A DNA stretch of 64,000 nucleotides, taken from positions 16,405-80,404 of IMG/VR virus record IMGVR_UViG_3300025133_000063; one strand, given 5' to 3'. Positions 33,974 to 51,851 of the stretch are shown one piece after another. A model generated the notes under the pieces. The model was not told the origin of the DNA. It did no database searches and was given only the letters and a program-made list of their open reading frames with translations. The position numbers were made by a program, and so were the translations under genes. Origin of the DNA: a virus. Within the stretch, counting starts at the first letter, position 1. The number at the start of each line of letters is the position of its first letter.

Positions 33974-34261
33974 GTGAAAATTACAAAAACACAAATCAGA
34001 AGAATTATTAGTGAGAGTAGAATACTCCCCGGTGAGCGAGCCTTGGACTTATACGCAGATATGTCTTTGACCGCAGATATTAAATCGAATATGCTTAAGC
34101 TTATTGAACAAGTAGCAGACAACGCAAACCTTGATGGCTTGAATGACGATGAGGCTCTAGAATCTGCCCATGACGCATTTTGTTCACTAGTGTCGGAGAT
34201 AGCCGACGCTGTTGGTTATCATCATGTCGCAAATCAAATGGACACATTTCAACGAAAGTAA
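33974..34261 (+). CDS. KIT-tag protein, unknown cargo
   Basis: 95 residues, GTG start. N-terminal tag KITKTQIRRIISES (class A, basic, ends I-S-E|S) is shared with the genes at 36993, 37385, 37783 and 48560. The cargo is helical and acidic (ALDLYADMSLTADIKSNML; LVSEIADAVGYHHVA), with no known domain. First clear member of the tagged cluster. Confidence 0.6.
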   Translation: MKITKTQIRRIISESRILPGERALDLYADMSLTADIKSNMLKLIEQVADNANLDGLNDDEALESAHDAFCSLVSEIADAVGYHHVANQMDTFQRK

Positions 34262-34277
34262 GCTTTAGGGCTAATTT

Positions 34278-35111
34278 ATGTCATATGGTAATACACCTCT
34301 TATAAAAATTTCTGATGGGATTTATGGAAAACTTGAAGCATATAATCCAACAGGTTCAGTTAAAGATAGACTGATCAAGTTTCTTATTGAAAAAGAAGTT
34401 TCTAATAAGAAAATAAATTCTGACACGGTGTTCTGTGAGGCTACATCTGGAAATACTGGAATAGCCCTTGCTTCGGCTGCTGCCTCCTTTGGTGTTATTT
34501 GTAGGATATATATGCCTGCAAACATGTCAAAGGAACGTGTGGATATGATGAGTGCCTTCGGTGCTAAAATTATAAAGGTTCCTGATAATGATTTTGAAGA
34601 AGCCATACGACAACGCGATATATTTTTAAATAAAAACAAAAATTCTTGGTCGCCAATGCAGTTTAGCAATCCAAATAATATTGATTGTCATTTTTCTACT
34701 ACTGCTCCAGAAATTCATAAACAAGTCGCTAAGAAATGGTCGGCATTTATTCATGGTTCTGGTACCGGTGGAACAATCGCCGGCGTTAAGAAATATATTG
34801 ATAGCTTATCACTACCAACAAAGGTCTGTCTAGTTGTTCCTGCCGAGGAAAAACATGGAATTCAAGGAATTGGCGATGGTCAAGATTTTTTAGCAACACC
34901 AAGTGAGTATGACGACATTTATATTATAAGAACTGAAGATGCAATTACACGATCAAAACAATTTGCAAAATCCAGCGGCTATTTAGTAGGCATCAGTTCA
35001 GGGGCAAATATACTTGCTGCTGAATTGTGGAAGAAAAAAAATAAACCTGATGGAGATATTATTACTATATTGGCCGATAGAGGTGAACGTTATATGTCAA
35101 TTTATAGTTAA
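34278..35111 (+). CDS. PLP-dependent cysteine synthase-family enzyme
   Basis: 277 residues. The PLP lysine is in NPTGSVKDR (about 26-34), the phosphate/substrate loop is EATSGNTGIALA, the glycine loop is GSGTGGTIAGV, and VGISSGANILAA lies near the end. This is the CysK/CysM layout, about 30 residues shorter than bacterial enzymes. It would make cysteine from (acetyl-)serine and sulfide. It is untagged though inside the tagged cluster. Probably an auxiliary metabolic gene. Confidence 0.85.
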   Translation: MSYGNTPLIKISDGIYGKLEAYNPTGSVKDRLIKFLIEKEVSNKKINSDTVFCEATSGNTGIALASAAASFGVICRIYMPANMSKERVDMMSAFGAKIIKVPDNDFEEAIRQRDIFLNKNKNSWSPMQFSNPNNIDCHFSTTAPEIHKQVAKKWSAFIHGSGTGGTIAGVKKYIDSLSLPTKVCLVVPAEEKHGIQGIGDGQDFLATPSEYDDIYIIRTEDAITRSKQFAKSSGYLVGISSGANILAAELWKKKNKPDGDIITILADRGERYMSIYS

Positions 35112-35137
35112 ATGAATATTTAAATACAGAGGTTTTT

Positions 35138-35506
35138 GTGTTAGAATATTCTATGCCATTTTTTTATGAAGACAGTAATGTTCCAGCCGTGCTGTCAAAA
35201 ATCTCCCCAATTGAAATCGGCGCCATTACATTGGGGCCATTTGTTTTTTCTAGAGGGAAAATAAGTGAATCAACACGTATACACGAAACAATACACTGGC
35301 AACAATATATTGAGACAGGGATAATTGGTTTTCTTGTCTTATATTTATTGTTTTGGATAATAGGTTTATTCAAATATCGGAGTGGTGTATTGGCTTATCG
35401 TAATATGCCATTTGAGCATGAAGCATATAAACACCAAGATGATGTATCATATTTGTTTAACAGATCACGTTATGAGTGGTGTCGATTAGGATATTACAAT
35501 GAATGA
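35138..35506 (+). CDS. Membrane-associated HExxH protein
   Basis: 122 residues, GTG start. RIHETIHWQQYIETG has a HExxH-like HETIH, followed by a hydrophobic span (IIGFLVLYLLFWIIGLF) and FEHEAY, a possible third ligand. Small membrane zinc peptidase is plausible; no substrate known. Overlaps the next gene by 8 bases. Confidence 0.5.
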   Translation: MLEYSMPFFYEDSNVPAVLSKISPIEIGAITLGPFVFSRGKISESTRIHETIHWQQYIETGIIGFLVLYLLFWIIGLFKYRSGVLAYRNMPFEHEAYKHQDDVSYLFNRSRYEWCRLGYYNE

Positions 35507-36950
35507 ATTAACGTTAAGACACTATATTAGAGAAGCTCTTGTATTAGATGCCGGTGCCGCTGGAACAGCCAGCTTAGACATACCAGATGGTATTAAAAAT
35601 ATAGATATAATGGATATAGTCACCGCAGAAATAGCCAAAGGTGATCCTACCGGTAAGAGAATGCAGCAAATTTTAGCATTTAATGAAATGGTTTACAATA
35701 TTGCTATGGAAGGTGGAAATAAAAATGCATGGCAAGCAATTGCCGAAAAAATGTTGGCTTATTGGGGTTATAATGTTGAAGACCAAACAGGCGCCGATGC
35801 AACAGGAATAACTGTTTTTTACGATGTTGAGAAAGACAATATATACTATTCAGTAAAATCATCGTTTAAATCAGGTGCTAACAGCTATAGGGCTGCTACA
35901 TCAAGCTCCAATGTTAAAATTCAGTCTATTTGTGCACTTATTATTAAGGAGCCTGAAAAGAACGTATTGGGTAATATTGGGTGTTTTTGTAACAAGAAGA
36001 ACCCTATCATAGGGTGGGGACAAGTTACTGCTCCAATATCAAGAGAAGCAGTGATAAAGAATATTTTGTCTATTGTTTCTAGTGATAATGATTTAGCAAA
36101 AAGATTTATCGATGCAACAGAAAACAAACCATCTTCTTCCATTGCTGATAAAATTATTAGTGATATTAAAAATTATTTTGCCTCGGCCGGCTTAACACCA
36201 GCAGATGGTCGTATGGGCTTAAGCCCTATGGCTGCAGTTCTTGGTGATATAAATGAAAAAGAAATAGGATCTCTTACCCTTGTAGATCCAGTTGAGCTTT
36301 TTGAAAAAACATTGGGTTCAGGTATAAAAGATGGTGTTCGTTCAGATGGCACTAAGGTTGCTCCTGAAGAGGATAGATCTGACTTTTTAAGAAGAATGAG
36401 ATCTGTCGCTAGAACGTTAAGTAGCGTTGAGATGGAAGATGTTATAGCGGCGGCTATAGGAATGTTGACATCTGCTAAGCCTGATGCACCATTGGAGGAA
36501 ACCTTAAGACAATTTACTCCTTCTACACAAGCTTATCTTAGAGAGCATTTTAAAATAAATGAATCAAGATTATTAAAAAAATATATCCGAAGTTTACTTG
36601 AATGTGGTGAAGAACCAGGGCAAACTTTACAACCTCTTATGGATCCCTTATTTAATCTTCGCGAAATAGTAAAAGAGCTAACTCTTCTAGAAGATCATAT
36701 GAATAATCCGTCAAAACAATGTCCGGATTGTATTAACAAACATTTAATGAAGTGTGAGGCCTTGTCTGAAGAGGCTATTTCTTTAGATGGTGATAACCAG
36801 TACCCATTTATTTCCAGTGTACCACAGGTTATTAGAGGGTGGCATAAGGCCGTATTAGATAACGATGTTATACCTCCAGCTGTTCCAGCTGAGATGAGAA
36901 GATTTAGAAAAATGATTATGCCACATGTGGCCAATAAATTTGAGGTTTAG
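35499..36950 (+). CDS. Tagged large protein with a second internal tag
   Basis: 483 residues. The N-terminus NELTLRHYIREALVLD is a class B tag variant. Residues 60-150 (WQAIAEKMLAYWGYNVEDQ, GADATGITVFYD, YYSVKSS) have a possible PD-(D/E)XK-like order of Glu, Asp and V-K, but this is weak. A second tag NESRLLKKYIRSLLEC starts at residue 354, followed by a separate C-terminal domain with CPDC and HLMKC cysteines. It looks like two tagged proteins fused in frame. Confidence 0.55.
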   Translation: MNELTLRHYIREALVLDAGAAGTASLDIPDGIKNIDIMDIVTAEIAKGDPTGKRMQQILAFNEMVYNIAMEGGNKNAWQAIAEKMLAYWGYNVEDQTGADATGITVFYDVEKDNIYYSVKSSFKSGANSYRAATSSSNVKIQSICALIIKEPEKNVLGNIGCFCNKKNPIIGWGQVTAPISREAVIKNILSIVSSDNDLAKRFIDATENKPSSSIADKIISDIKNYFASAGLTPADGRMGLSPMAAVLGDINEKEIGSLTLVDPVELFEKTLGSGIKDGVRSDGTKVAPEEDRSDFLRRMRSVARTLSSVEMEDVIAAAIGMLTSAKPDAPLEETLRQFTPSTQAYLREHFKINESRLLKKYIRSLLECGEEPGQTLQPLMDPLFNLREIVKELTLLEDHMNNPSKQCPDCINKHLMKCEALSEEAISLDGDNQYPFISSVPQVIRGWHKAVLDNDVIPPAVPAEMRRFRKMIMPHVANKFEV

Positions 36951-36957
36951 TATAGCA

Positions 36958-36996
36958 ATGAAAATTACTAAAACAAAAAAGAGGATTTTAAAATGA
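36958..36996 (+). pseudogene. Tag-only mini-ORF (class A tag remnant)
   Basis: Twelve codons from ATG 36958 to TGA 36996 read MKITKTKKRILK, the start of a class A tag, and stop exactly where the next tagged gene begins (ATGA). It appears to be a decayed tag whose cargo was lost, or a leader peptide coupling translation. Confidence 0.5.
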
Positions 36997-37385
36997 AAAT
37001 CACAAAGAGACAGCTACGAAGAATTATTAGAGAAGCTTTTACAACGGTGTCTGATGAAGAATTTGACAGGGACACCTTTGCAGACTATAGGGGTGGACTA
37101 CGAGATTTAGTTCCATCAGATCCAAAGCGCCCATGGGGATCATATGCTGGTGTTGGTGATGAGACATATTCTGATACTATTGTGATGAGTCCAAATGGAG
37201 ACTCAGTCTTGGTTGATGGTCTAGAAACTTATATACAAGATGTACCCTCACAATTACACCATACTTCAGGTTTTGAAATGAGTAAGACCGATGCAGATAA
37301 TTTAATATTCGCCCTTGAAACTCAGGAACAAGATGGTTATATAGAGCTTGGTGTCGAATACAAAAATGGAAAATGGAGTTGGTAA
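36993..37385 (+). CDS. KIT-tag protein, unknown cargo
   Basis: 130 residues. Perfect class A tag MKITKRQLRRIIREAF with I-R-E|A processing-like end. Cargo is a small mixed alpha/beta domain (TIVMSPNGDSVLVDGLETYI; DADNLIFALETQEQDGYIEL). No known family. Coupled to the next tagged gene by TAATG. Confidence 0.6.
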   Translation: MKITKRQLRRIIREAFTTVSDEEFDRDTFADYRGGLRDLVPSDPKRPWGSYAGVGDETYSDTIVMSPNGDSVLVDGLETYIQDVPSQLHHTSGFEMSKTDADNLIFALETQEQDGYIELGVEYKNGKWSW

Positions 37386-37762
37386 TGAGAATTACAAAGA
37401 GACAACTACGAAAAATTATTAGAGAAGTTAGCGACTGGTATGATGACGAAAACGAGACGCTTGCCGACAAAAAATTTCGTGACTCCTATGAGAGTGAAAA
37501 ACGGCCCCGCGATGATTTACGAAATCGAGTACATCAATACTTGATTGATAAAAAGTTTTTCAAAGGACGTAATCTCAATGGCCGGCCACAGATCGAGATA
37601 TTCTGGGGACCACCTGAAGGACCAGATGTCCCAAAAGGTGCAGGATATACAAATCCCGCCCATGATTTTCTAAAATCAGCAGTTGAATCCGGTGACATTG
37701 ACTGGGCCACATGGGAAGAAATTGAGCCTATCTGGCGAGAAATTGACAGATCAATTAACTGA
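37385..37762 (+). CDS. KIT-tag protein, unknown cargo
   Basis: 125 residues from ATG 37385, chosen because it begins the class A tag MRITKRQLRKIIREVS. Cargo is charged, with HQYLIDKKFFKGRNLNGRPQ then IEIFWGPPEGPDVP. Unknown function. Confidence 0.6.
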   Translation: MRITKRQLRKIIREVSDWYDDENETLADKKFRDSYESEKRPRDDLRNRVHQYLIDKKFFKGRNLNGRPQIEIFWGPPEGPDVPKGAGYTNPAHDFLKSAVESGDIDWATWEEIEPIWREIDRSIN

Positions 37763-37782
37763 CATTTAAAAAGGAGATAACA

Positions 37783-38739
37783 ATGAAAATTACAAAAAGA
37801 CAACTTAGAAGAATCATTAGAGAAACTGGCCGGCCCGAACACGATGCCGAAGCCCGCGGCATGGTGGCTTCATACCGTCAAGGTTACAATGATGCCTATC
37901 GCGGACCAGGATATAAAAAACGTGGCAATCGCGAATATCTTCGAGGGTACCAACAGGGTGTTGCTGACGTCGAACAAGGTAAGCCCCCACCGGACGGCTT
38001 CCGGCCAGCCCGGCGCATTAGGGAAGCCGAAGGCTCTACCAAGAAATACGATGATGACTCTGCGCTTAAGGGCGGGCAAAGCAAACTTCCTGATGCCCTT
38101 CAAAAAGGGATCATTGATAAGACAGTTGATGACCGTGAAGAGCGTGAAGAAGAAGAGAGAGAAGAGAAGAATGAATCCGTACAAATTATAAAGCGACAGC
38201 TTAGAAGAACTATTCGCGAAATGATGAGGGGTCCAGCTGCTGAGATGGCTGCAGCCGCTGCAGAGACCGGTGCAGCCGGTATGGCACATCGCCGTGATGG
38301 CCTCGGTAAAAATATCACCGACGTTGACTTTCCAATTATCGTAGGTTACGAAGGTAAGTCGGAGATTGCATATAATCAGGATGAGCTGGACGACATATTG
38401 GATTATGTTGCTCCTACCCATGGCAGTTCTGGAATTCCATACAGCTTAGATTCTATTTCTGATTTAGAACCACACTCTGTTCCTGTAGGTGTTGGAATAG
38501 AGCAATTGTCTGCTGGAAAGAAAATAAAGATTACAAAAAGTCATTTAAAAAGAATTATTCAAGAAACAGTATTACGTGAAAATTTAAACAGTGCTATTGA
38601 AAAAGCACTAACAATGTCAGACACTAAATCTATTAATGTTGTAATAGAAAAAGTAAAAGAGATTGTTGGTGATCAATATAATGATGAACAAATTGCAATT
38701 GCTGTTGAAGATAGCTTTGATAACGCCATGGGAATATAA
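37783..38739 (+). CDS. Polyprotein-like ORF with three class A tags
   Basis: 318 residues containing three tag copies: residues 1-14 (MKITKRQLRRIIRE), 133-147 (VQIIKRQLRRTIREM) and 249-262 (KITKSHLKRIIQET). Between them lie an Arg/Gly/Tyr-rich segment (GYNDAYRGPGYKKRG), an Ala-rich plus acidic domain, and a helical C-terminal domain (NVVIEKVKEIVGDQY). If each tag is cut at (I/L)-x-E, three small proteins would result. Fusion of once-separate tagged genes is the likely origin. AAGGAG ribosome site. Confidence 0.6.
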   Translation: MKITKRQLRRIIRETGRPEHDAEARGMVASYRQGYNDAYRGPGYKKRGNREYLRGYQQGVADVEQGKPPPDGFRPARRIREAEGSTKKYDDDSALKGGQSKLPDALQKGIIDKTVDDREEREEEEREEKNESVQIIKRQLRRTIREMMRGPAAEMAAAAAETGAAGMAHRRDGLGKNITDVDFPIIVGYEGKSEIAYNQDELDDILDYVAPTHGSSGIPYSLDSISDLEPHSVPVGVGIEQLSAGKKIKITKSHLKRIIQETVLRENLNSAIEKALTMSDTKSINVVIEKVKEIVGDQYNDEQIAIAVEDSFDNAMGI

Positions 38740-38775
38740 AAAGTAAGATATATTTTGAACCTAACGGAAACTAAA

Positions 38776-39339
38776 GTGAACATTATTCGTGAATATATAA
38801 GAGAGCTTCTTGTTGAAGATTTAGCTAAGCGTCAAACTATGGTTATAGAACTGATAACTGAAGAAGACAATTCAGCAGGTCCAGGGTTTAAATACATTCA
38901 CCGTGGAATGAAGATTGATATAGGTAGTGCACCTCTCGCCTCACAGATAAGAAAAGTAGCACAAAAGAAATCAGCCGGTATAAGTGAGCGCGAAGCTGGT
39001 GCTTTTATTATGGCCAAGTTGAAAAACGAAGAAATCGGTGAATCTTGGACAACAAATAGAGATGTAGCTTCAAACTTTGCAGATGTTTGGGAGGCAACCA
39101 ATCGAGGCAGCACTCTTCACGTGATGTTTACTGGCAAGATTCCAAATAATTTTGGTTATGATCCAACAATAACTGGTGAAGAGCCTGCGATGTTTGACGA
39201 TGAAAGTGAGGTTCGAATTCCAAAAGGCGAAGAAATAGAAATCTCTTCTGTTTCTGTTTTTATTGCTAGTAAGGCCAGCGGCAAAAATTGGATGAAATTT
39301 CGCCCAGTCGCATTTAGCTTAGGCAAGGTAAGAGCATGA
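38776..39339 (+). CDS. Tagged ADP-ribosyltransferase-like protein
   Basis: 187 residues from GTG 38776, chosen because it begins the class B tag NIIREYIRELLVED (TTG 38755 would add seven residues). The cargo shows the R-S-E layout of mono-ADP-ribosyltransferases: YIHRGM (Arg, NAD binding), SWTTNRDVASNFAD (Ser-Thr strand), and DESEVRIPKGEEIEI (Glu-x-Glu catalytic). T4 Alt is a head-packaged ART that modifies host RNA polymerase; by tag and fold this is a candidate analogue. Target unknown. Confidence 0.65.
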   Translation: MNIIREYIRELLVEDLAKRQTMVIELITEEDNSAGPGFKYIHRGMKIDIGSAPLASQIRKVAQKKSAGISEREAGAFIMAKLKNEEIGESWTTNRDVASNFADVWEATNRGSTLHVMFTGKIPNNFGYDPTITGEEPAMFDDESEVRIPKGEEIEISSVSVFIASKASGKNWMKFRPVAFSLGKVRA

Positions 39340-40127
39340 ACCTACTCCGCGAATACATAAGAGAGCTGCTAGCAGAAGACGCCATGGGCTTTGTCCACGA
39401 TCTTGCAGCTACATCAGAAGAGTTTGGTGAAGAAGGCGAAATGTTCTTTGGTGGTAATCCCGGAAAAGGCGGAGGCAAGGCAATTAAGCGCGCATTCAAT
39501 GCAAATGCTGATCACCAATGGTTGGCAACACTAGACACTGTCCATTGGACCGGTGAGATTTACAATATGGAAGGGCTTGTTGGAAAAGGAAAGGACGAAC
39601 TTTCTGCAACAATGACGCTTCCAGGCGAAGATTTTGATTGGCAGCTTTATTATGGATTATGGATAAAGGGCCGCATAACCTTAGCAGCAAATGATCAAGA
39701 CGCGTTATATACAGGTCACTATTCGACAGGTACTCCAGACGAGAAACAAGCACATATAGATAAATCTTCTGGAAGAAACAAGCTGCCATCCGTCTCAAAA
39801 GATTATAGTCGTTACGGACAACTTAAACGTGGGAACGAATATGCCGAAAGGACGGCGAAGAAAATTCCATATCTTTTAGACCAGTCTATGTGGAATCCTT
39901 CTGGGAATAATAACGAAGCACTGGTCGACAATTGGAAACCTGTTGGAATAATCCTAACGAAATTCGACGAGATAGATATCGTTTCAGGATTGGGGTATGT
40001 TGAGGGCACCAAAGAAGATATTGAAGAATTTACGCTTGGTGTGACGAAACAAATTCTATTAACGGCCCTTGCGTTTGGTGTACCAGTTTATGATACAGAG
40101 CGAGAGTTATTATGGAGCCCGGAATGA
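39336..40127 (+). CDS. Tagged protein, unknown cargo
   Basis: 263 residues. Class B tag MNLLREYIRELLAED. Cargo includes LYYGLWIKGRITLAANDQ, DKSSGRNKLPSV and VDNWKPVGIILTKFDEIDI, and from memory resembles uncharacterised phage proteins of similar length. No catalytic motif is certain. Coupled by ATGA both sides; codon use is more GC-rich than outside the cluster. Confidence 0.6.
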   Translation: MNLLREYIRELLAEDAMGFVHDLAATSEEFGEEGEMFFGGNPGKGGGKAIKRAFNANADHQWLATLDTVHWTGEIYNMEGLVGKGKDELSATMTLPGEDFDWQLYYGLWIKGRITLAANDQDALYTGHYSTGTPDEKQAHIDKSSGRNKLPSVSKDYSRYGQLKRGNEYAERTAKKIPYLLDQSMWNPSGNNNEALVDNWKPVGIILTKFDEIDIVSGLGYVEGTKEDIEEFTLGVTKQILLTALAFGVPVYDTERELLWSPE

Positions 40128-40633
40128 AATTCATGTCATTTCAGAGCTGGCTGGCACAAACAATAGCAGATGATGGTTGTTGTCAATCTGAAAACATATC
40201 ATATCTTTGGGCTGATCCGAATCAGGAAGATGTGCTGGATTATTTCGCCACTCAATATGATTTAAACACTATACGGATGGAAGACATTCAAGCTGCTGCC
40301 GATGAAATGTATCAGAAAACTCAGTCTGCCATAGCCTCTGATTTTCCAGATGAGATTCAAGTTTGGCGGTGTGGTGGATTAGCCGGTGATGTAACATCGG
40401 TGACGACTAACAAGAGAGTTGCTGATGGTGGGTGTAGCGGTGGTTATTATGGTGGCAAGGATGCCACCGTCACATCATATATGGTAAATCGTTCTGATGT
40501 TCTAGCTTCGGTTGAGCATCTCTGGCCCGCGGGCGATTTTGTGGAGGACGAACTCTTGGTCCGCCCCGGAGCACTCCGGCCAATGAAAGAATCTTTACTC
40601 CGTGAATACATAAGAGGGCTCCTAGAGGTTTAG
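40124..40633 (+). CDS. ADP-ribosyltransferase-like protein with C-terminal tag
   Basis: 169 residues from ATG 40124 (ATGA overlap, GGAG site). ART-like R-S-E elements: EIQVWRCGG (Arg), SVTTNKRVADGG (Thr-Thr-Asn), and EDELLVRPGAL (Glu-x-Glu with following Pro-Gly). Unlike its neighbours the class B tag lies at the C-terminus (residues 154-169, KESLLREYIRGLLEV). Either C-terminal targeting works too, or a tag from a lost downstream gene has been captured. Confidence 0.6.
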   Translation: MKFMSFQSWLAQTIADDGCCQSENISYLWADPNQEDVLDYFATQYDLNTIRMEDIQAAADEMYQKTQSAIASDFPDEIQVWRCGGLAGDVTSVTTNKRVADGGCSGGYYGGKDATVTSYMVNRSDVLASVEHLWPAGDFVEDELLVRPGALRPMKESLLREYIRGLLEV

Positions 40634-40634
40634 A

Positions 40635-41252
40635 ATGAAATTACTTAGAAAATATATAAAGCAACTTTTAAAAGAAGAATATAACATTGAAAAAAACAAG
40701 TGGACACTTTTAGGACCTGACGATTTAAGACGTGATGACGTAATGCAACAATTATATGATATGACGTGTGAAACTTATGGTCCAATTGGTGGTCACCCAA
40801 AAATATCATGTCCTTTAGCATTAAATAAATACATGTATTGGATTGTCGCAGATATCGATGATGATCCAGAAATTGATGTTGGAATGTATGGAAAGCCAAC
40901 TGCTGCCGGCCATAAAATGGGTGGTGCAGCAAATGATGGTACTCCTCAAGCCGCACAGGCATATAAAGAAAAGTCCGCAGAATTACGTTCTGGTGGATCA
41001 ATAGATGGTGTTGGTAATTGGTATGGTGAAGTTTCCGGAAAGCCAGCGTACGCAATGTTATCAAGAGGGGCTCCGGCTATAGTAAATGAACAACAGGTCA
41101 AGGCACTATTAAAAGGCAAAGGTGTAATTTGGCATGGAATGCATCCTGATCCAGCTGCACCAGCTGTTTTTAAAAATAGCCCTGGATGGTATTCTAGAAA
41201 CTTAGGTGGTGTTCTTCATACAAAAATAATTGTTGGCTCACCAAAGGTTTAA
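40635..41252 (+). CDS. Tagged protein, possible GNAT-like cargo
   Basis: 205 residues. Tag MKLLRKYIKQLLKEEY. Cargo: DLRRDDVMQQLYDMTCETYG, YWIVADIDDDPEIDVGMYGK, and the end WYSRNLGGVLHTKIIVG. The helix then strand start and the W-H-G-M-H-P-D phrase recall GNAT-like phage proteins, but the acetyl-CoA loop is not clear. Unknown target. Confidence 0.5.
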   Translation: MKLLRKYIKQLLKEEYNIEKNKWTLLGPDDLRRDDVMQQLYDMTCETYGPIGGHPKISCPLALNKYMYWIVADIDDDPEIDVGMYGKPTAAGHKMGGAANDGTPQAAQAYKEKSAELRSGGSIDGVGNWYGEVSGKPAYAMLSRGAPAIVNEQQVKALLKGKGVIWHGMHPDPAAPAVFKNSPGWYSRNLGGVLHTKIIVGSPKV

Positions 41253-41254
41253 CA

Positions 41255-44239: not shown

Positions 44240-44241
44240 AT

Positions 44242-44820
44242 ATGAACCTACTCCGTGAATACATAAGAGAACTCCTCACTGAATCTGTCGATCCCAAAAT
44301 CATGTCAATGATTGATAAACTCGAGGAACTAGAAGGTTTTGTTGAGATCATGCCAGACAGAGCAGTGATTATGATTAACAAAGTTGTTGGGGAAGATCGC
44401 TATCCGGTTCCACTCGGCCATGTGGCGTGGGGAGAAGGAAGGCTCGATGGTCCATGCCTTGGAGCAAAAATAGTATCTTCATCCACTATGAAAATGGGTT
44501 TTGGTCCGCTTGCTTACGATGTTGCGATTGAGGTAACCGGCGGACTAACATCAGATCGAGATTCAGTTACGAAATATGCAAATGCTGTCTGGGATCGATA
44601 TATGAATGGTCGTCCTGATGTCCAAGTGCTACAAATGGATAATGATCGAAATCACCTAACTCCTGAAGACGAAGATAATTGTGAACAACGTTCCGCCAGA
44701 GTCGATTCAGGAGGATGGTCACCACCAGGCAGCTTTTGGGATTCTTCTTTGAGTAAGGTTTACAAAAAATCAGGCACTCCAGTCATGGATGAGTTGCGCC
44801 GAAGAGGGATGTTAGACTAA
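44242..44820 (+). CDS. Tagged protein, uncharacterised cargo
   Basis: 192 residues. Tag MNLLREYIRELLTES (L-T-E|S). Cargo: GHVAWGEGRLDGPCLGAKIV, KMGFGPLAYDVAIEVTGGL, and DSVTKYANAVWDRYMNGRPD. I recall related proteins in other phages without known function; a GNAT-like fold is possible but its signature loop is not evident. Confidence 0.55.
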   Translation: MNLLREYIRELLTESVDPKIMSMIDKLEELEGFVEIMPDRAVIMINKVVGEDRYPVPLGHVAWGEGRLDGPCLGAKIVSSSTMKMGFGPLAYDVAIEVTGGLTSDRDSVTKYANAVWDRYMNGRPDVQVLQMDNDRNHLTPEDEDNCEQRSARVDSGGWSPPGSFWDSSLSKVYKKSGTPVMDELRRRGMLD

Positions 44821-45179
44821 TGGAACTCATCCGCGAATACATAAGAGATTTGATAAAAGAATCGATAGCTATCGGCCAATGTTATCCTCACGCTGTTAAT
44901 ATGGCAAAAGATTCAAAAGTGTCAGATAGAAATGATCTGTCGAAATTCAAGGTAGTGCACGGTCGAGTTACAAACAAATGGAATGATAAGTCATTTGAAC
45001 ATGCATGGGTTGAAAAGGGTGATATGATATTTGATTGGCAAACCCATTCAACAAAACCAGACGGTGTTCCTCATGATGTATACTACGATATGTATCAGCC
45101 TGAGATCTACAAAGAATACACCGGTGCAGAAACAATAATGAACTGTGTCAATTCAGGACATGCAGGACCTTGGCGATGA
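44820..45179 (+). CDS. Tagged papain/transglutaminase-like small protein
   Basis: 119 residues. Tag MELIREYIRDLIKES. Cargo has a possible Cys in GQCYPHAVNMA, a His in SFEHAWVEKGDMIFD and an Asp in FDWQTH, in the Cys-His-Asp order of papain-like folds. Small phage papain-like proteins of this type are known to me only as uncharacterised. Catalysis unproven. Starts by TAATG overlap. Confidence 0.5.
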   Translation: MELIREYIRDLIKESIAIGQCYPHAVNMAKDSKVSDRNDLSKFKVVHGRVTNKWNDKSFEHAWVEKGDMIFDWQTHSTKPDGVPHDVYYDMYQPEIYKEYTGAETIMNCVNSGHAGPWR

Positions 45180-45490
45180 AACTGTTACGTGAATACATAA
45201 GAGAGATGCTTAATGAACAAATAGACCTGCAGGCTGTTATAAATGATTTGGATAATCTTACTGCAGATGAGATCATGAAGCTGTGGCGTGCTGTCGCTAC
45301 TGCCAGTAGGAAGAAAGAAAAGGAGATAAAAGCCGACTTTAACAAAGGCGACAAAGTCGAATTCGACCACGATGGCGAGACAATCACTGGCACTGTCGCC
45401 CGGCGAGGTGGAAAGTTTGTGAGTGTTAATGTTCACGGGTACGGCTCGCCGTGGAAAAGAAATCCATCTAGCCTGAGAAAAATATCATGA
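45176..45490 (+). CDS. Tagged small protein with KOW/SH3-like C-terminus
   Basis: 104 residues from ATG 45176 (tag start MKLLREYIREMLNE). A helix (AVINDLDNLTADEIMKLWR) leads to a beta barrel-like GDKVEFDHDGETITGTVARR. Could bind nucleic acid or the ribosome; unknown. Confidence 0.55.
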   Translation: MKLLREYIREMLNEQIDLQAVINDLDNLTADEIMKLWRAVATASRKKEKEIKADFNKGDKVEFDHDGETITGTVARRGGKFVSVNVHGYGSPWKRNPSSLRKIS

Positions 45491-45993
45491 ACATTCTCCG
45501 CGAGTACATAAGAGAGCTATTGAGAGAAAAACGAAATACCGCCGGCACCTTTTATCACTTTAGTAATGAAAAGTTTGATGAATTTAGTCTCTCCAACGCG
45601 TCGGATAGCGCAATATGGGGGAAGGGAATTTATCTTTCTGACGACCCTGACGATTTGAGCGGCTGGGGGAAAGAAGACAGAAACCGAGGCTTCTTGTACA
45701 CAGTGGAGATAAAATCCGATCAGAAAAATATTATAGATATGACACAACCGATCCCTCCAGAAATATATGAAAGGATTGAGGCGCATCTTGAAAGACCTCT
45801 GTCAGACATAACCAAAGAGGATGGGATATTCCCTTTTAATACTTTAGATCGAAAATCTGGATCTGTGGCAAACGCAATGCGAGAAATGGGCTTTGAAGTT
45901 TTAAAGCACCCACCACCGGGTAGCCATAAGGGAAGCCATTATTTAGTCACCGAACCATCAGTTATAGGCGTTTTAGAGGTTCAACAACAATGA
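45487..45993 (+). CDS. Tagged ART-like protein
   Basis: 168 residues. Tag MNILREYIRELLREK. Cargo TFYHFSNEKFDEF then WGKGIYLSDDPDDL and FLYTVEIKSDQKNI has the H-x-S, G-x-x-Y-L-S and strand layout of PARP/ART-like toxins (H-Y-[EDQ] class). The third catalytic position may lie near the end (VTEPSVIGVLEV). Candidate effector modifying host protein or nucleic acid. Confidence 0.6.
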   Translation: MNILREYIRELLREKRNTAGTFYHFSNEKFDEFSLSNASDSAIWGKGIYLSDDPDDLSGWGKEDRNRGFLYTVEIKSDQKNIIDMTQPIPPEIYERIEAHLERPLSDITKEDGIFPFNTLDRKSGSVANAMREMGFEVLKHPPPGSHKGSHYLVTEPSVIGVLEVQQQ

Positions 45994-46529
45994 ACCTCCT
46001 ACGCGAATACATAAGAGAGCTGCTAGCTGAGGCTCCCACCCTTAACCACAAGGGGGATGAGAATTATTTCCGAGTTGAACTGGGAAGAATTGGATATGCC
46101 CAAGGTGCCCGACATCTTAGGTTCCAAGACTGTCAAGCTGACGTCGATAAAATCATGCAAACACCTGAGTACCTGGTTGCTAAAGAAAAATACGAAACCA
46201 CCAACACGACGAAGGACATGGTTGAAGATCCGGATTCTCCGAATGGGTTCAGGATGCAGAAAAAACCAGCAACATTCCGGCCACCGTTCTACGATGTAGC
46301 AAATGCATGGATCCACGATGAAGATAATCGTGGCAAAGGTCATGGTAAAGAAATCTATAAAGCATTCATAGACAAAGCCAGTGAGTATGCAAAAAGAAGC
46401 GGTGGTGTCTTTATCGGAGCACATCACTGCACAATAGGTTCAGGCACATCAGAAGCGGCAAAGCGGGTTTGGAAATCTATAACTAAAAACTACACATCAT
46501 CTGGTGATGTTATCTTTATAGGATTATGA
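45990..46529 (+). CDS. Tagged GNAT acetyltransferase-like protein
   Basis: 179 residues. Tag MNLLREYIRELLAEA. The GNAT acetyl-CoA motif is DEDNRGKGHGKEIYKAFID (R-x-x-G-x-G), preceded by the beta4 strand (VANAWIHDE) and followed by SEAAKRVWKSI. It would acetylate an unknown host target after injection; the target is inferred only from the tag. Confidence 0.65.
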   Translation: MNLLREYIRELLAEAPTLNHKGDENYFRVELGRIGYAQGARHLRFQDCQADVDKIMQTPEYLVAKEKYETTNTTKDMVEDPDSPNGFRMQKKPATFRPPFYDVANAWIHDEDNRGKGHGKEIYKAFIDKASEYAKRSGGVFIGAHHCTIGSGTSEAAKRVWKSITKNYTSSGDVIFIGL

Positions 46530-46530
46530 A

Positions 46531-47892
46531 ATGAGCTTACTTCGTGAATACATAAGGTTGTTAAGTGAAAAACAAGTTCGTGATCAAAAAAAGAAACGTG
46601 TTCTTTATCACATTGGTCCACGCCCTGCAAAGCCTATGCCAATGTCTCGCCCTTATGCACAGTCCTGGCGCCGGTACTGGCTCGATCAAGGTGTGGAATC
46701 TGGAGTATTTTTCTCACCCAACCCAATTGACATAGCCCAGTATCATGGAATTAGTGGTGATGTTTATGCCTACAAAATTCCAGAGTGGGTAATTGCAAAA
46801 GCAGGCGGAGTCCACAGATATGATCATGGCTCTGAAGTGTTGATTTCTGCCGATGTATGGCAAGAAGCTGGAGATGAAATAGAGTTTCTTGGAAAGAGCA
46901 TGCCGGAAAAAGAGCTTTGGGAGAAGATTGAATCTCTTGGAGCTGAACCATTAAGAAGATCTGCCGGAAGCCGACCAGGCTGGATGAGTGATGACGAATG
47001 GGAAAAAGCAAGTATGAACAAAACCACACAGAGTCATATATCTGGACTAAGATCTACTAAGCATCTAAAAAACGCCATCCGCATGATGAAGCCCAATGAG
47101 CGTGACGAAGCTCTTACCGCGTTTGAGACTATTGATGTCCTTAGAAAAAAAGATTATGAGATAATAGATATGATCAAGAGCTATATGAATGAGTCATCTC
47201 TTCGGGGTTACATAAAAGAGGTGTTGGAAAGTCAACCTGAAGAGCCAGATATGACTCAATACGTTGACGATCTAGAAAATGAGATTTTTACGATGCTTTT
47301 TCAAAAGAGCACATATGACTATCTTCAGTCTCAGGATGAAGGTATAGAATCGACGATGATCATGAATACATCTCTGTTTGATGAATATAATAATATAAAC
47401 GAAGTACATTTAGGTATCCTGGTGAACGATTCAGAGTCCGCGGACGTCGAAGCTGCATATGTTTGTGCCCCAGAGGAGAGGAATAAGTCGAACCTTGTGT
47501 TGAGTATCAATATTCCTAGAAACTATCCCCAGGTTGAGGGTTTCCAAGATTGGCTCAGTGCGGAGCTAGCCGATAGTTTATCTCACGAAATCCAGCACAG
47601 TTGTGATACATCCGAAATGTTGGCTGCCGATATTCCGGAAGGTGAGGCGAAATGGGAGAGTTTGGAAAACATAGAAAAGTACTATGCTTCCGAAGCCGAA
47701 ACAAGAGGTCACATCGCCGGTATGATGGGAAGAGCTCGGAGGACTGAACAAGATCCTGAGAAGCTTTTGCAACATGACGTTGAAACTGTGATGATGAATG
47801 CTCTCGACAAAGGGTATACAAAACAGGAGATGATTCCCGTCGTTCAAAGAATATATGATAAGTGGTCTGAGAGATTGGGGGATCGAAAATGA
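46531..47892 (+). CDS. Tagged ART-like domain fused to internally tagged zinc peptidase
   Basis: 453 residues. N-terminal tag SLLREYIRLLSEKQ and an ART-like domain (RVLYHIGPRP, GVFFSPNPIDIAQYHG, YAYKIPEWV). A second class B tag NESSLRGYIKEVLES starts near residue 220. After it comes a peptidase-like region with the zinc motif LSHEIQHSCDT near residue 352 and ASEAETRGHIAGM downstream. Two tagged cargos appear joined in one frame, which may be cut apart at the inner tag. Confidence 0.6.
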   Translation: MSLLREYIRLLSEKQVRDQKKKRVLYHIGPRPAKPMPMSRPYAQSWRRYWLDQGVESGVFFSPNPIDIAQYHGISGDVYAYKIPEWVIAKAGGVHRYDHGSEVLISADVWQEAGDEIEFLGKSMPEKELWEKIESLGAEPLRRSAGSRPGWMSDDEWEKASMNKTTQSHISGLRSTKHLKNAIRMMKPNERDEALTAFETIDVLRKKDYEIIDMIKSYMNESSLRGYIKEVLESQPEEPDMTQYVDDLENEIFTMLFQKSTYDYLQSQDEGIESTMIMNTSLFDEYNNINEVHLGILVNDSESADVEAAYVCAPEERNKSNLVLSINIPRNYPQVEGFQDWLSAELADSLSHEIQHSCDTSEMLAADIPEGEAKWESLENIEKYYASEAETRGHIAGMMGRARRTEQDPEKLLQHDVETVMMNALDKGYTKQEMIPVVQRIYDKWSERLGDRK

Positions 47893-48563
47893 AATACTTA
47901 CGACAATACATAAGAGAAGTATTAGAAACTTCATTACCGGTGCAGCCTAATTCACAGATATTTTGTGACATGGATGGAGTATTAGTAGATTTTGAAACAT
48001 CAGTTGTTACTTTTATAAATCACTTACTAGATGGTGGTAGTATTCCAAATGTTAAAAGAAGCAAAGGGCATTTTTACCGTCTTAATTTAATACATAAAGA
48101 AATGGGAAAAGATTGGAGGCTACAGACTGGATCCGACTTAAATCTTCCGGTAATACGATCATTTATGTTTATTAGCATCGCCGCAAATCCCGGTGCAATA
48201 TTTGCTTCAATGAAACCACTTCAAGATGGTGTAGATCAACTTTGGCCGGCTTTAAATTCTACAGATTTAACAGTGAATATTTTATCTGCTCCAATCAATG
48301 GAAACAAAAGCGCACCAATGTCCGCTGCCGAGGGAAAAACAAGCTGGGTAGAGCACTGGTTAAAACCACAACCAAACAATATTATTATTACTCCAGCTCG
48401 CCAAAAGCCAGAATACGCCAACACTAATGGTACGCCAAATATACTTATAGATGATAAAGCATCAACTATTGATTCGTGGAACGCTGCTGGTGGAATTGGA
48501 ATTCTTCATACACCTGGAAATAGTACAAAAACGATAACGGTTTTAAAAGAATTACTGAAATGA
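47889..48563 (+). CDS. Tagged HAD-family 5'-nucleotidase-like protein
   Basis: 224 residues. Tag MKYLRQYIREVLET. HAD motif I is IFCDMDGVLVDFE; motif II is NILSAP; the Lys is in EGKTSWVEHWL; motif IV is PNILIDDKASTIDSWN. This matches phage 5'(3')-deoxyribonucleotidase-like proteins. The tag suggests it travels with the virion, unlike the HAD gene at 3366. Confidence 0.7.
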   Translation: MKYLRQYIREVLETSLPVQPNSQIFCDMDGVLVDFETSVVTFINHLLDGGSIPNVKRSKGHFYRLNLIHKEMGKDWRLQTGSDLNLPVIRSFMFISIAANPGAIFASMKPLQDGVDQLWPALNSTDLTVNILSAPINGNKSAPMSAAEGKTSWVEHWLKPQPNNIIITPARQKPEYANTNGTPNILIDDKASTIDSWNAAGGIGILHTPGNSTKTITVLKELLK

Positions 48564-49963
48564 AAATTACAAGAAGACAACTAAGAAGAATTATTAAGGA
48601 AGAATTATACCACAATTCTTTTAGTAATTTAGATCTTTCTAGAAATCACCTATCTTTTCGAGGAGATTCACGGCTTTTTGAAAGATCATATATTACTGGA
48701 ACATTAGGTCTTTCTATTCCTCTTCAGGAATCTTATCCATATTCACCATCGTTTGAAAAGCGCATTATTCATGAGCAGACACTCTACGAAAACTGGTGGG
48801 GAGACGATTGGTATCTTTTTGAGGGTGCTTATGGAGAATTATTAAAAACACATTCGGCAGAAGCTCTATTGGAGAAATTGCATGAAGGACCCATTCTTGA
48901 TTGGGGAAAAGGTCTTTTATCTACTGCGGTTCAGAAAGGAAAAGAGGTAGTTAAGAAAGGTATTGAAGCTGGTAAAGAAGCCCTTATGAGTGCAGAAGAG
49001 GGCATCAAAAAATTTGGTAAGGATGCATGGAATATTTTAAGTGCAATGTGGTTAACCATGAAAGGTGGCGCAAGTGAAATTGGATCATGGGTTAAGTCTG
49101 TAGTTCGATTAGGAATCGGCTCTATGTTGGAAAGCATTGAGAAAGCACTCAAGTTTCTAGCAACAAAATTACCAGAATGGAAGATGCCCACGTTCGGTGA
49201 ATATGCTCAAAAGGGTCTTGACTTTATAAATTCTTTAAAAGGCAAACTAGAGAACCTCGATGGATGGAAGGGTGTTATTACAGTCTCGGGGATTGCGATT
49301 GGATTGAAGTGGCTTTGGAATAAGGTAGGCAAATGGATAGACGAATTAAAAGAGAAGGTGGGTGGTAAATTCACTGAGACATCGGAAATTGCATCAAACG
49401 TAGCAGGTGGTATCGATGCTGCTAAAGAATGGATAAAAGAAACTGCAAAAGAAAAGCTTGCGGCTATAGGCGGCAACGCCTTTAAGAAAATTATGGGAGT
49501 GTTGGCTTCCGTATCATCAGGTGTAAAGCCGTGGTGGGATGCAGCTGTAAAAGTAGCCGGCGGAGTAGAATTAATTATTTCTTCCCTTGGAGATGCAGCC
49601 AGTCGCTTTATGCGAATAAACAAACCAAAAGAAGTTCAGACGGAAAATATAAAAATTACAAGAAAACAACTTAGAAAAATTATTAGAGAAGTTTCAACTC
49701 CAACACTTCAACAATGGGCAAATCAACATAATTTACCTATAGACTTAGATCCGATTACTGGAGAAGAAGTTATACTCATTGATGATGAATTTGCAATGAG
49801 ACAAGGAATTCCGGACGGTGCCCAATGGAGTGTTGAGCGATCATATGATGATGATGGTTGGGTTGTATCAATCCCAAATTCTGATACACTAGGGTTTGAG
49901 GAAATTTCATATGGTGGCTTAGACGATATGGATGATATAGAAATGCAGGTTAGAGGTTATTAA
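48560..49963 (+). CDS. Class A tagged amphipathic protein with internal second tag
   Basis: 467 residues. N-terminal tag MKITRRQLRRIIKEEL. Residues 110-350 are amphipathic, Lys/Ala/Gly/Trp-rich helices (KGKEVVKKGIEAGKEALM; SIEKALKFLATKLPEW) suggesting a membrane-active or DNA-condensing internal protein. A second class A tag (KITRKQLRKIIREV) begins at residue 365, followed by a short acidic C-terminal domain (HNLPIDLDPITGEEVILID). Fusion of two tagged genes. Confidence 0.6.
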   Translation: MKITRRQLRRIIKEELYHNSFSNLDLSRNHLSFRGDSRLFERSYITGTLGLSIPLQESYPYSPSFEKRIIHEQTLYENWWGDDWYLFEGAYGELLKTHSAEALLEKLHEGPILDWGKGLLSTAVQKGKEVVKKGIEAGKEALMSAEEGIKKFGKDAWNILSAMWLTMKGGASEIGSWVKSVVRLGIGSMLESIEKALKFLATKLPEWKMPTFGEYAQKGLDFINSLKGKLENLDGWKGVITVSGIAIGLKWLWNKVGKWIDELKEKVGGKFTETSEIASNVAGGIDAAKEWIKETAKEKLAAIGGNAFKKIMGVLASVSSGVKPWWDAAVKVAGGVELIISSLGDAASRFMRINKPKEVQTENIKITRKQLRKIIREVSTPTLQQWANQHNLPIDLDPITGEEVILIDDEFAMRQGIPDGAQWSVERSYDDDGWVVSIPNSDTLGFEEISYGGLDDMDDIEMQVRGY

Positions 49964-50006
49964 TAAAATGAAGAAATGTACCTTTTACCTTATAGGATTA
50001 AGATAA

Positions 50007-50915
50007 ATGAGTAATTTATTAAGAACATATGTCCGTACTGTTTTGACTGAATCATCTAAATGGTTAGGTATGACACCTGCAGATATTCTTGTTGATTTAA
50101 AGCGATTAGAAGGTAAGAACATTATATTTTTCGACACCGAAACAACTGGGTTAGGCCCTAAGAAATCGCAAATTACAGAAGTAGCAGCGATGGTTGTACC
50201 ATTGACAGGGTGGCAAGATAAATTTGTTATAACACAATCATTTCATGAAAAAGCAAACCTTACACCTGAAACTGTTGATAGAGCGAATGCCCACGATGCT
50301 GAGAGAATTCAGAAACTTGCTGACGATCCAAACTACAAGCCATCAGCAAAATCAGAGCGTGAATTACTGAGTATGACAAACTATGGTAGTCATTCTAAAG
50401 ATTATATGGATGAGCATAATCTTTTAGTTACATATAGCGAATGGTGTGATTCAATTCCCAATAAAGTATATGCTGCTCATAATGCTCCATTTGACATGAG
50501 GATGTTAAATGGTAGGTTAAGAAAGTATGGTGAGAAGCCAATACCAAAAGCCGAGGTTTTAGATACCTTAACACTAGTGCAACTATTCCTTCAACCGGTA
50601 ATAAAAGCTGCTACACCAGATGGAAGAACGGCTGATATGGCTTCTAAGCTAGATACAGGTCGAAGGGGTTTATACAAATATTCGTCTAGACTGGGAACTC
50701 TTGCAAAAGCTGCTGGTGTATCCATTGATAATTGGCACAGTGCTGATGCAGACGTAATAATGATGATGAGTGTTGTCGCTGCCGTAATAGACGAAATTGA
50801 AAATGGCGAATATGATTCAGAAAAAGCTGCTGAAGGATCTAAGTTTGCTCAAAAAAGATATTTTAGAAAGCGTGAGAAAAAATATAGAAAAGAAAAAGCA
50901 GCAAAGAAGAAATAA
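50007..50915 (+). CDS. Tagged DEDDh 3'-5' exonuclease (DnaQ-like)
   Basis: 302 residues. N-terminal tag-like SNLLRTYVRTVLTES. Exonuclease motifs: IIFFDTETTGLG (Asp-x-Glu), AHNAPFDMRML (Asp), and NWHSADADVIMM (His, Asp). The C-terminus is Lys/Arg-rich (FRKREKKYRKEKAAKKK). It could be a proofreading or host-DNA-degrading exonuclease delivered with the genome. ATG follows a GATTAAG stretch with weak ribosome site. Confidence 0.75.
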   Translation: MSNLLRTYVRTVLTESSKWLGMTPADILVDLKRLEGKNIIFFDTETTGLGPKKSQITEVAAMVVPLTGWQDKFVITQSFHEKANLTPETVDRANAHDAERIQKLADDPNYKPSAKSERELLSMTNYGSHSKDYMDEHNLLVTYSEWCDSIPNKVYAAHNAPFDMRMLNGRLRKYGEKPIPKAEVLDTLTLVQLFLQPVIKAATPDGRTADMASKLDTGRRGLYKYSSRLGTLAKAAGVSIDNWHSADADVIMMMSVVAAVIDEIENGEYDSEKAAEGSKFAQKRYFRKREKKYRKEKAAKKK

Positions 50916-50918
50916 GGA

Positions 50919-51662
50919 ATGAAACACTTGTCTGAAAAATCAATTCTTAGAGAATATATTAGAAATTTGTTATTAGAATCTGCTTCTGCCCCAAAAGTTA
51001 TTTTCCTTGCAGGGGCTCCTGGATCTGGAAAGTCTACAGTAATTCAACGTTTAGGATTAGCCAATAAATTTGAGATAGTAAATCCTGATGATGCATATGA
51101 AGAAGCAAAAAGAAGGGACAATCTTCCATTTGACAAGACAGATATATTAGATAAATACAAGCCAATAAAAGATGAATACTTGGCCGCCATCGCAATAGAT
51201 GATCAAGAAACCATTAATAGATTAGAACCTGAATATTTGCGTTTGAAAGCACCTCTTTCTGCTGATGCAAAGGCGTTTAGTGCAGCAAGATCAGGGGCAA
51301 GTAAAAGAAAAAAGCAATTAGCGGTAGAAAATAAAGATTTTTTGGTTGATGGTACAGGTGGTAACTTTAACGAAATTAATTCTCAAATAAAAAAGTTACG
51401 CAACATTGGGTATAAAACGGCAATGATTTATATCGATATTGATTTGGAAACATCAATTGCCAGGAATATTGATAGAGGTAAAAGGGGTGGCAGAAGATTG
51501 ACCGACAGTGCTGTTGAAAGATCTCATTCAGGTGTCACCGCAAATAAAGAATTATATAAAGATTTGTTTGGAAAAAACTTTTTTTATATTGATGCTTCAC
51601 CGGCAGGTTATGAGAAAAGCATCAACAATGTAGCACAAGAAATAAAAGAATTTTTGAGATAA
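50919..51662 (+). CDS. Tagged zeta-toxin-like P-loop kinase
   Basis: 247 residues. Tag SILREYIRNLLLES starts near residue 8. Walker A is FLAGAPGSGKSTVIQRL, followed by NPDDAYEEAKRR (substrate Asp), FLVDGTGGN (Walker B-like) and RNIDRGKRGGRR (lid Arg). Zeta toxins phosphorylate UDP-GlcNAc and polynucleotide kinases have a similar fold. Role as injected effector is inferred. Confidence 0.65.
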   Translation: MKHLSEKSILREYIRNLLLESASAPKVIFLAGAPGSGKSTVIQRLGLANKFEIVNPDDAYEEAKRRDNLPFDKTDILDKYKPIKDEYLAAIAIDDQETINRLEPEYLRLKAPLSADAKAFSAARSGASKRKKQLAVENKDFLVDGTGGNFNEINSQIKKLRNIGYKTAMIYIDIDLETSIARNIDRGKRGGRRLTDSAVERSHSGVTANKELYKDLFGKNFFYIDASPAGYEKSINNVAQEIKEFLR

Positions 51663-51668
51663 GCTAAT

Positions 51669-51851
51669 ATGATAAAAAATTATAATACAACATTCGACGG
51701 CCCAGCAAACAAAATTAGTAACGGTCAATTTCAGTGGTTTTCGTTTTCACTTGAATCAGGTTATAAGAACAAAAAAATTCAATTTATATCTAGTCACCTA
51801 TGGCTTTTCGGATTTCAAATATTTGAGATCTGCTTTAAAAGAATAAATTAG
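51669..51851 (+). CDS. Small hypothetical protein
   Basis: 60 residues, beta-rich with aromatic residues (FQWFSFSLESGYKNKKIQF). Overlaps the convergent protease gene by 4 bases. Marks the end of the tagged cluster. Confidence 0.35.
   Translation: MIKNYNTTFDGPANKISNGQFQWFSFSLESGYKNKKIQFISSHLWLFGFQIFEICFKRIN

Follow-up and report, generated by a model that had tools for sequence, protein, structure and literature searches.

Why would some twenty adjacent phage genes encode unrelated proteins that share one of two short leaders? The question is raised by a cluster at positions 33974-51662 of the window, the whole 64,000-base stretch that we analysed (bases 16405-80404 of the 80,404-base IMG/VR virus record IMGVR_UViG_3300025133_000063; the preceding 16.4 kb were read separately). 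We consider it highly likely that the leaders, hereafter tags, are capsid-targeting sequences (CTS) of a jumbo phage of the T4 superfamily, cut after (I/L)xE by a gp21-type protease, and that the proteins behind them, the cargo, are injected into the host with the DNA. In the mechanism that we propose, the amphipathic leader of 13-15 residues would bind the prohead core during head assembly, the protease would cut after (I/L)xE and free the cargo inside the head, and the cargo, injected together with the DNA, would have an early effect on the host. Tags inside or at the C-terminal end of ORFs would mark fused units, and they may be cut as well. Core binding is proposed because the leader resembles the N-termini of small proteins encoded beside the protease. 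We infer core binding, cutting, packaging, injection and action on the host from sequence.

Within 33974-51662, 18 open reading frames (ORFs) carry an N-terminal leader of either of two kinds, found by eye and checked by script; the first starts at 33974 and the last ends at 51662, the very span given by a first-pass annotation of this DNA, which had also described the (I/L)xE ending seen here in 17 of the 18 (the exception is VLE at 47889). The two kinds, exemplified by MKITKRQLRRIIRE and MNLLREYIRELLTE, are called Q-type (MKIT..QL..II.E) and Y-type (LREYIRELLxE). Tags are 13-15 residues long and both leaders fit one 13-residue pattern; because typical leaders of the two kinds have equal Met-to-Glu length and the same hydrophobic positions, aligning residue for residue, we read them as one tag class. 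Seven further copies are internal or C-terminal, six of them with the (I/L)xE ending. Neither these copies nor the alignment of the two tags figured in the first-pass annotation. In models of 38755 and 44242 (ORFs are named by their first coordinate), the tag appears as a helix of low to moderate confidence before a better-predicted body.

How specific is the motif? With the last residue fixed as E, it occurs 14 times in the 134 plus-strand ORFs of at least 60 aa of the 80-kb record, 13 times in the first 45 residues; it occurs 0 times in the reversed proteins and 0 times in 97 minus-strand ORFs, and 200 shuffles gave a mean of 0.025 and a maximum of 1. A position-specific scoring matrix (PSSM) was trained on 386 tags from relatives, i.e., other records with the tag; one leader was omitted as core-like and the KLTSNLLKRIIMQ type was perhaps included, which would favour the second small ORF of locus L198 (see below). 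Under this matrix, for which shuffled N-termini give a 99.9% level of 2.8 and a highest score of 10.4, 18 of the 231 ORFs of the record exceed 3.9, 17 in the cluster and one outside (1002-1334); the tag of 46531 scores just 1.1. The outside ORF scores 9.7 with the leader MLSKRYVRNLIHSAI, which lacks the final E, and a 455-aa ORF also outside the cluster (L001:4964-6331) has a tag-like stretch, SKIRALVVQILNEE, in its C-terminal part. In the relatives, E stands at position 13 in 358 of 387 distinct N-terminal tags, and in 154 of the 183 in which the fetching patterns did not force it.

The ORFs and inner tags of the cluster are as follows, a slash separating the end of a tag from the next residue:

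33974..34261, plus strand: tagged ORF, GTG start, 95 aa, no family, VKITKTQIRRIISE/S
34278-35111: untagged PALP (pyridoxal-phosphate) enzyme inside the cluster, E 3.6e-52
35138-35506: untagged ORF inside the span
35499..36950, plus strand: two-module ORF, degenerate N-terminal tag lacking the final E (by eye)
36564-36602, plus strand: internal tag SRLLKKYIRSLLE/C of the 35499 ORF
36993..37385, plus strand: tagged ORF, MKITKRQLRRIIRE/A
37373..37762, plus strand: tagged ORF, likely start 37385, MRITKRQLRKIIRE/V
37783..38739, plus strand: three-tag ORF, N-terminal MKITKRQLRRIIRE/T, internal tags at 38182-38220 and 38527-38565
38755..39339, plus strand: tagged protein of ADP-ribosyltransferase (ART)-like predicted fold, likely start 38776 (GTG), VNIIREYIRELLVE/D
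39336..40127, plus strand: tagged ORF, unknown, MNLLREYIRELLAE/D
40112..40633, plus strand: ORF with a C-terminal tag only, SLLREYIRGLLE/V-stop at 40592-40627
40635..41252, plus strand: tagged ORF, MKLLRKYIKQLLKE/E; homologue in L002 has the other tag type
41255..42256, plus strand: ORF with degenerate tag-like N- and C-termini (by eye), membership weak
42253..43116, plus strand: UPF0227 alpha/beta-hydrolase-like domain (E 2.3e-4) and second module, joined via an internal tag
42712-42750, plus strand: internal tag NFLRKYIRETLCE/F of the 42253 ORF
43100..44239, plus strand: tagged two-domain ORF, MNLLHEYIRVLLE/Q
44242..44820, plus strand: tagged, possibly GNAT-like protein, MNLLREYIRELLTE/S
44820..45179, plus strand: tagged ORF, unknown, MELIREYIRDLIKE/S
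45170..45490, plus strand: tagged ORF, likely start 45176, MKLLREYIREMLNE/Q
45487..45993, plus strand: tagged ORF, MNILREYIRELLRE/K, weak ART-PolyVal match (E 9.4e-4, below curated cut-off)
45990..46529, plus strand: tagged ORF, MNLLREYIRELLAE/A
46531..47892, plus strand: tagged ORF, MSLLREYIRLLSE/K, internal tag ESSLRGYIKEVLE/S at 47191-47229
47889..48563, plus strand: tagged ORF, MKYLRQYIREVLE/T, very weak NT5C nucleotidase match (E 0.012, sub-threshold)
48560..49963, plus strand: tagged ORF, MKITRRQLRRIIKE/E, internal tag at 49652-49690
50007..50915, plus strand: tagged DnaQ/RNase_T-type exonuclease, MSNLLRTYVRTVLTE/S, RNase_T 1.5e-13
50919..51662, plus strand: tagged zeta-toxin/AAA_33-type P-loop kinase, SILREYIRNLLLE/S at residues 8-20, 1.3e-12

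How widespread is the tag? A profile search across phages had been recommended for both tags, and the same tags indeed occur in many large viral records. Scans of viral contigs gave 34 stretches with LREYIRELLxE and at least 119 with MKIT..QL..II.E, many of them in records of 100-293 kb; in 257 Gb of genomes from bacteria and archaea, the latter pattern turned up in 8 stretches on 5 contigs. With looser patterns, single records had as many as 24 exact hits of Q-type and 7 of Y-type, all on one strand in every tagged record except G025 (10 and 1), and the reversed patterns gave 0 Q and 1 Y in 41 records. Six records from a phage collection (W01-W06) contained no Q or Y pattern matches and one match to the reversed control, in W04, where looser Q-like leaders are seen by eye. 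Since relatives with the same tag reach 293 kb, the 80-kb record is probably a fragment of a larger genome. Its DnaB has matches in 28 of 34 other records, 24 at 56-66% (one of these partial, the best being 66% in G011 and G003) and 4 at 39-42%. The 20,268-base record IMGVR_UViG_3300008050_000431 (L026) encodes tagged proteins 100% identical to 45990, 46531 and 47889 and is probably the same phage in another record. The tag also occurs on contigs filed under bacterial metagenome-assembled genomes (MAGs; L208, L212 and L213, NHDW01000006.1, 305,838 bases; L209 and L211, PBIO01000025.1, 101,404 bases, a length equal to that of IMG/VR record 2788500220_000014); these contigs are probably from phages and were binned with bacteria.

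If the tag addresses cargo to a T4-type head, does it occur together with the genes of such a head? We searched 35 tagged records (34 and the window's own), mostly picked for size among the 152 pattern loci listed. The T4 gp21 protease (PF03420) was found in 22 and gp23 (PF07068) in 21 of these tagged records, each in 21 of the 22 records of at least 103 kb. In one relative, L194, PHROGs profiles identify terminase, portal, head maturation protease (phrog_207, 6.6e-49) and gp23; the two small ORFs after gp21 and the putative gp22, named by position only, have no PHROGs family. In G013 and G021, two gp23 copies lie in tandem. The gp21 site is given as L/I-X-E (PMC9026906) and T4 gp23 loses 65 residues (PMC9958956); near that point, at residues 59-61, the gp23 of the relatives has L(R/K)E in 19 of 19 distinct sequences. 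Five tagged ORFs directly follow gp23 in L197 (G025), four of them by PSSM; the tag of the fifth lies too far inside the longest frame for the scan.

The small ORFs downstream of gp21 in the relatives themselves have leaders, such as KMTRNDLKSLVKECLFEILLE, that resemble the tag. By tag PSSM, these ORFs rank first and second among the 22-32 ORFs of each of L194 (8.3, 6.7), L195 (8.7, 2.6), L196 (15.9, 8.8; 22-27 ORFs in these three), L199 (3.5, -3.5) and L200 (7.2, 7.0; 23-32 ORFs in these two). In L198 they rank second (18.6) and fourth (6.4), and in L197 fifth (12.9), after four cargo ORFs, and sixteenth (-22.0).

Do lineages with other leaders keep the same end? In the huge phages LR756502 (642 kb) and LR745206 (635 kb; L216, L215, L206), ORFs start with MKYL..Y.(I/L)FE, in 15 and 14 exact matches for a reversed control of 0, and position P3, left free in the pattern, is I or L in 26 of 29 of these leaders. 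Both phages encode proteins similar to exonuclease 50007, and the LR756502 homologue has SIKRFGQLNE/N near its start. In LR756508 (484 kb, L217), which has a protease match above the curated cut-off, two ORFs after gp23 are followed by a row of ORFs starting like MRLKEILLE/N, MKLKGILKE/A and MIKFKKLLFE, and further on by Q-like leaders such as MRLSERKLRRIVKEE (L217 12697-17387 and 22189-30317). This small, hand-found sample suggests lineage-specific leaders under one end rule. Perhaps each lineage of large phages with gp23 and gp21-type proteins has its own capsid "address code": a short leader that stems from, or mimics, the start of its prohead core proteins, closes with the site of the protease, and is taken on by cargo genes exchanged between phages; we hold this generalization tentatively, at close to an even chance of being right.

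What do the tags carry? Among 22 cluster ORFs, Pfam matches are few: RNase_T, zeta/AAA_33, UPF0227, a weak ART-PolyVal and weaker sub-threshold ones. By its AlphaFold model (pLDDT 78.4), 38755-39339 is a protein of ART-like fold: nearly all of the 49 VIA-align rows shown are ART entries, the best at Z 7.3 (root-mean-square deviation, rmsd, 3.2; 100 aligned), below the Z of 8 under which VIA-align itself advises caution, and the best Foldseek E is 0.03. Rows were assigned to the ARTs by title or known identity. In an alignment of 7 sequences, two of them identical over the aligned part, residues R43, S90, E143 and E145 do not vary, and they match the R-S-ExE catalytic motif of ARTs. The model of 44242 (pLDDT 81.5) points to a possible GNAT by weak resemblance: acetyltransferases make up most of the 50 VIA-align rows shown, but isocitrate lyase 2 fills the top rows (Z 6.8) and a clear acetyltransferase first appears at Z 6.2 (rmsd 3.5, 108 aligned), and Foldseek gave no match with E <= 0.001. 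Relatives' loci hold 24 ORFs, some partial, that match 44242. Homologues of 38776-39336 and 44242-44817 were drawn from the loci of tagged relatives, and a relative-locus search for these two gave no confirmed relative. At the limits used, 44242, 38776-39336 and the L194 small ORF had no match in 50,697 phage records. Sequence searches of the PDB with alignments A2 and A3 returned no meaningful match (three chains at E 0.15 to 0.89; none).

Several further candidates were set aside. The ART profile aligned essentially the tag, or nothing of note, in 40112, the C-terminal part of 43100, 45487 and the first part of 46531, and likewise in L204:14733-15473; a short match of the 44242 profile to 45990 (probability 96%, 50 columns) was not used. 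Of the cargo proposed in the first-pass annotation, the ART-like protein (38755, with a weak match for 45487), the exonuclease 50007 and the kinase 50919 are supported, 44242 is possibly GNAT-like, the peptidase is not confirmed and the phosphatase is reduced to the sub-threshold NT5C match. From the relatives' loci we selected 310 tagged ORFs and scanned the longest 120 of their 282 distinct bodies, finding 13 Pfam families at E <= 0.001, one protein each, among them PS (phosphatidylserine) decarboxylase (9.6e-17), AAA_33, RNase_T, HD and an IrrE-type peptidase; an EF-hand family match (alignment A1) was also seen. By BLAST linkage, 394 tagged bodies from the window and the relatives fall into 274 families, 220 of them singletons, so the bodies are for the most part unrelated, as had been claimed.

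Cargo has moved from one fusion to another and, at least once, from one tag type to the other. Two relatives encode the second module of 35499 as an ORF of its own, which begins with the tag in L004 (60% identity) and with a variant of it in L012 (52%), and the hydrolase of 42253 stands alone and untagged in L066 and L038. The first module of 43100 is 70-85% identical in three relatives; in L035 it forms part of a 688-aa protein, beginning at residue 190, and in L023 it is fused to a different C-terminal partner, a relative of 45990, whose body forms the C-terminal part of other tagged proteins in L023 and L029. The cargo of 40635 is Y-type in the window, and its homologue in L002 (59% identity across 186 residues) is tagged with the Q-type leader. 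This exchange, together with the equal length and common pattern of the tags, weakens the earlier suggestion that the two tags mean two sorting routes; what speaks for it is that most multi-member families keep one type (types are mixed in 4 of 54 such families by our rule).

Could the tags serve another end? They might bring minor core or head components, rather than injected effectors, to the prohead core, there to act in assembly or be degraded. The tag-like leaders of the small ORFs beside gp21 would suit such components, 41255 and 48560 look helical by eye, and T4 gp22, gp67 and gp68 are cut to peptides (PMC9958956). The ART-like and GNAT-like folds, the exonuclease, the kinase and the 220 singletons in 274 families, however, fit a changing arsenal better than a set of assembly parts, and we regard this explanation as distinctly unlikely. 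The leaders might instead address their proteins elsewhere, e.g., to a replication compartment, the membrane or a protease such as a ClpP-like one, with (I/L)xE as part of an amphipathic helix and not a cut site. The record does encode a ClpP-like protein, and the leaders are predicted to be helical, with low to moderate confidence; this proposal, which we think very unlikely, leaves aside that a different leader in the huge phages has an unchanged end (26 of 29), that gp23 has the same type of site and that tagged ORFs adjoin gp23 in one relative. Are the leaders simply recombination cassettes, conserved start DNA that aids gene shuffling and whose peptide has no role? In Y-type tags, the Ile-7 codon is ATA at a frequency of 0.90 against a background of 0.30, and Arg-4 is mostly CGC/CGT whereas Arg-8 is mostly AGA/AGG. 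Such position-specific synonymous codons suggest a second role of the tag DNA, present or past, as a site of recombination. However, Q- and Y-type tags have one residue pattern in different DNA and the codons of the Q-type Ile pair vary, and we consider a peptide without a role extremely unlikely; cassette exchange and targeting are compatible and both can hold.

Capsid targeting with gp21-type cutting thus remains our preferred explanation, and several observations count against it. Searches with PF03420 and PF07068 found neither gp21 nor gp23 in the window's own 80-kb record, and the tag-bearing MAGs G036 and G037 gave no gp21 match. Protease presence alone is weak evidence because S77 proteases, described for jumbo-phage groups 1 and 2, are usual there (PMC7824862). 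The 59-61 site is not unique, each gp23 N-terminus having 2 to 5 other (I/L)xE sites. Just past the tag, E is frequent in the relatives (P1' E in 215 of 387), and cutting would fall at the tag end or possibly at a second site downstream. Some post-gp21 scores are modest (L195 2.6; L199 3.5 and -3.5; L197 -22.0), some lying under the 99.9% shuffle level, and two head-module ORFs with no known link also exceed 2.8 (L196:1987-3582, 5.2; L197:17831-18475, 3.7). The protease matches of LR756502 and LR745206 do not reach the curated cut-off. The idea of capsid-targeting, gp21-cut tags, already put forward in the first-pass annotation, is upheld indirectly, by the protease and gp23 of relatives, the L(R/K)E site, the leaders beside gp21 and the tagged ORFs next to gp23. 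That annotation had asked for a gp21-like protease to be sought in the rest of the genome; the window's own record shows none, and 22 of the 35 tagged records have one.

In what genome does the cluster lie? PHROGs profiles, run on 20 ORFs of the record, identify a DnaE-like polymerase, thymidylate synthase, DHH phosphoesterase and GroEL, and in its first part a PolA-like protein, SSB, a UvsX-like recombinase, an exonuclease, DnaB, ribonucleotide reductase and a ClpP-like protein. The record thus has two DNA polymerases, DnaE-like (window 4552-8211) and PolA-like (L001:3158-4369), and a phage-encoded GroEL (window 26765-28345; phrog_5725, 1.2e-136). We did not take the ClpP-like protein (L001:13565-14167) for the prohead protease, because it is sited among replication and metabolism genes; its matches are to phrog_94 "head maturation protease" (1.4e-22) and to profiles of ATP-dependent proteases. 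L001:26-3124 weakly matches phrog_10, "major head protein" (5.9e-5), a match that we did not use. Just past the cluster, on the minus strand, lies a trypsin-like peptidase (PF13365, 6.2e-14; window 51848-52555). ORFs 38755-49963 overlap or abut, with gaps of -17 to +2, an arrangement as in one operon, and G+C is 0.39-0.43 at 38-48 kb versus 0.32-0.38 elsewhere in the window (exception 0.394 at 36-38 kb). T4-type late promoter octamers (TATAAATA) show no concentration at the cluster or gp23 and so offer no promoter argument, and neither sigma-70-like sites (51 versus 58.2 in shuffles) nor terminator-like ones (14 versus 12.6) are in clear excess.

How does the cluster relate to known systems? 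The tag sequence looks different from the CTS of T4. In T4, packaged and injected proteins, the CTS and the gp21 site are established (PMC9026906, PMC12373910), and at least 10 Ip proteins are reported over related phages (PMC12373910). The CTS propeptides have 10-19 residues; targeting depends mainly on residues 4 and 7, and processing on residues 8 and 10, while a terminal Asp permits targeting but prevents cutting (PMC9026906). Like T4 IPI-III and Alt, the tagged proteins combine a short propeptide common to unrelated bodies with an L/I-x-E end (PMC9026906, PMC9958956, PMC12373910), the tagged relatives have a gp21-type S77 protease and gp23, and the cargo probably includes an ART; a tag at the C-terminus, as in 40112, has a precedent in T4 Alt, which is processed at that end. 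Unlike T4 with IPI, IPII, IPIII and Alt, the cluster has about 20 tagged ORFs for putatively packaged proteins in 18 kb, internal tags and further enzyme types. Giant phages of the phiKZ/SPN3US type also package many head proteins, some of them injected, as inner-body or ejection proteins (PMC13282480, PMC5694885); compared by description only, they differ from the short tag on unrelated small proteins and the gp23-type capsids of the tagged relatives. Packaging of ARTs in phage heads has been predicted before (PMC9503650): virion-packaged ARTs, MuF fusions and polyvalent proteins are likewise enzymatic effectors, ARTs foremost, predicted to be packaged and injected, with ARTs near head genes and at least 10 ARTs in phage G. 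Those effectors are MuF-fused, part of large multidomain proteins or encoded near head genes, whereas we propose that a short leader sorts the cargo in this cluster. Among the open-access literature matches listed, none describes this class of tag, how densely it occurs, its internal copies or how far it extends among uncultured large phages. We judge the cluster to be a new, dense variant of the T4 internal-protein system.

What phages inject along with their DNA is mostly unknown, since uncultured phages yield no virions for analysis. Should the tag be a packaging signal, the cargo that large phages deliver to the cell becomes findable by sequence search, and the tagged proteins are candidates for new host-takeover and counter-defence functions. 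If, moreover, each lineage does have its own address code, DNA alone would be enough to catalogue what uncultured phages inject, tens of proteins per genome, and in huge phages of more than 600 kb as well.

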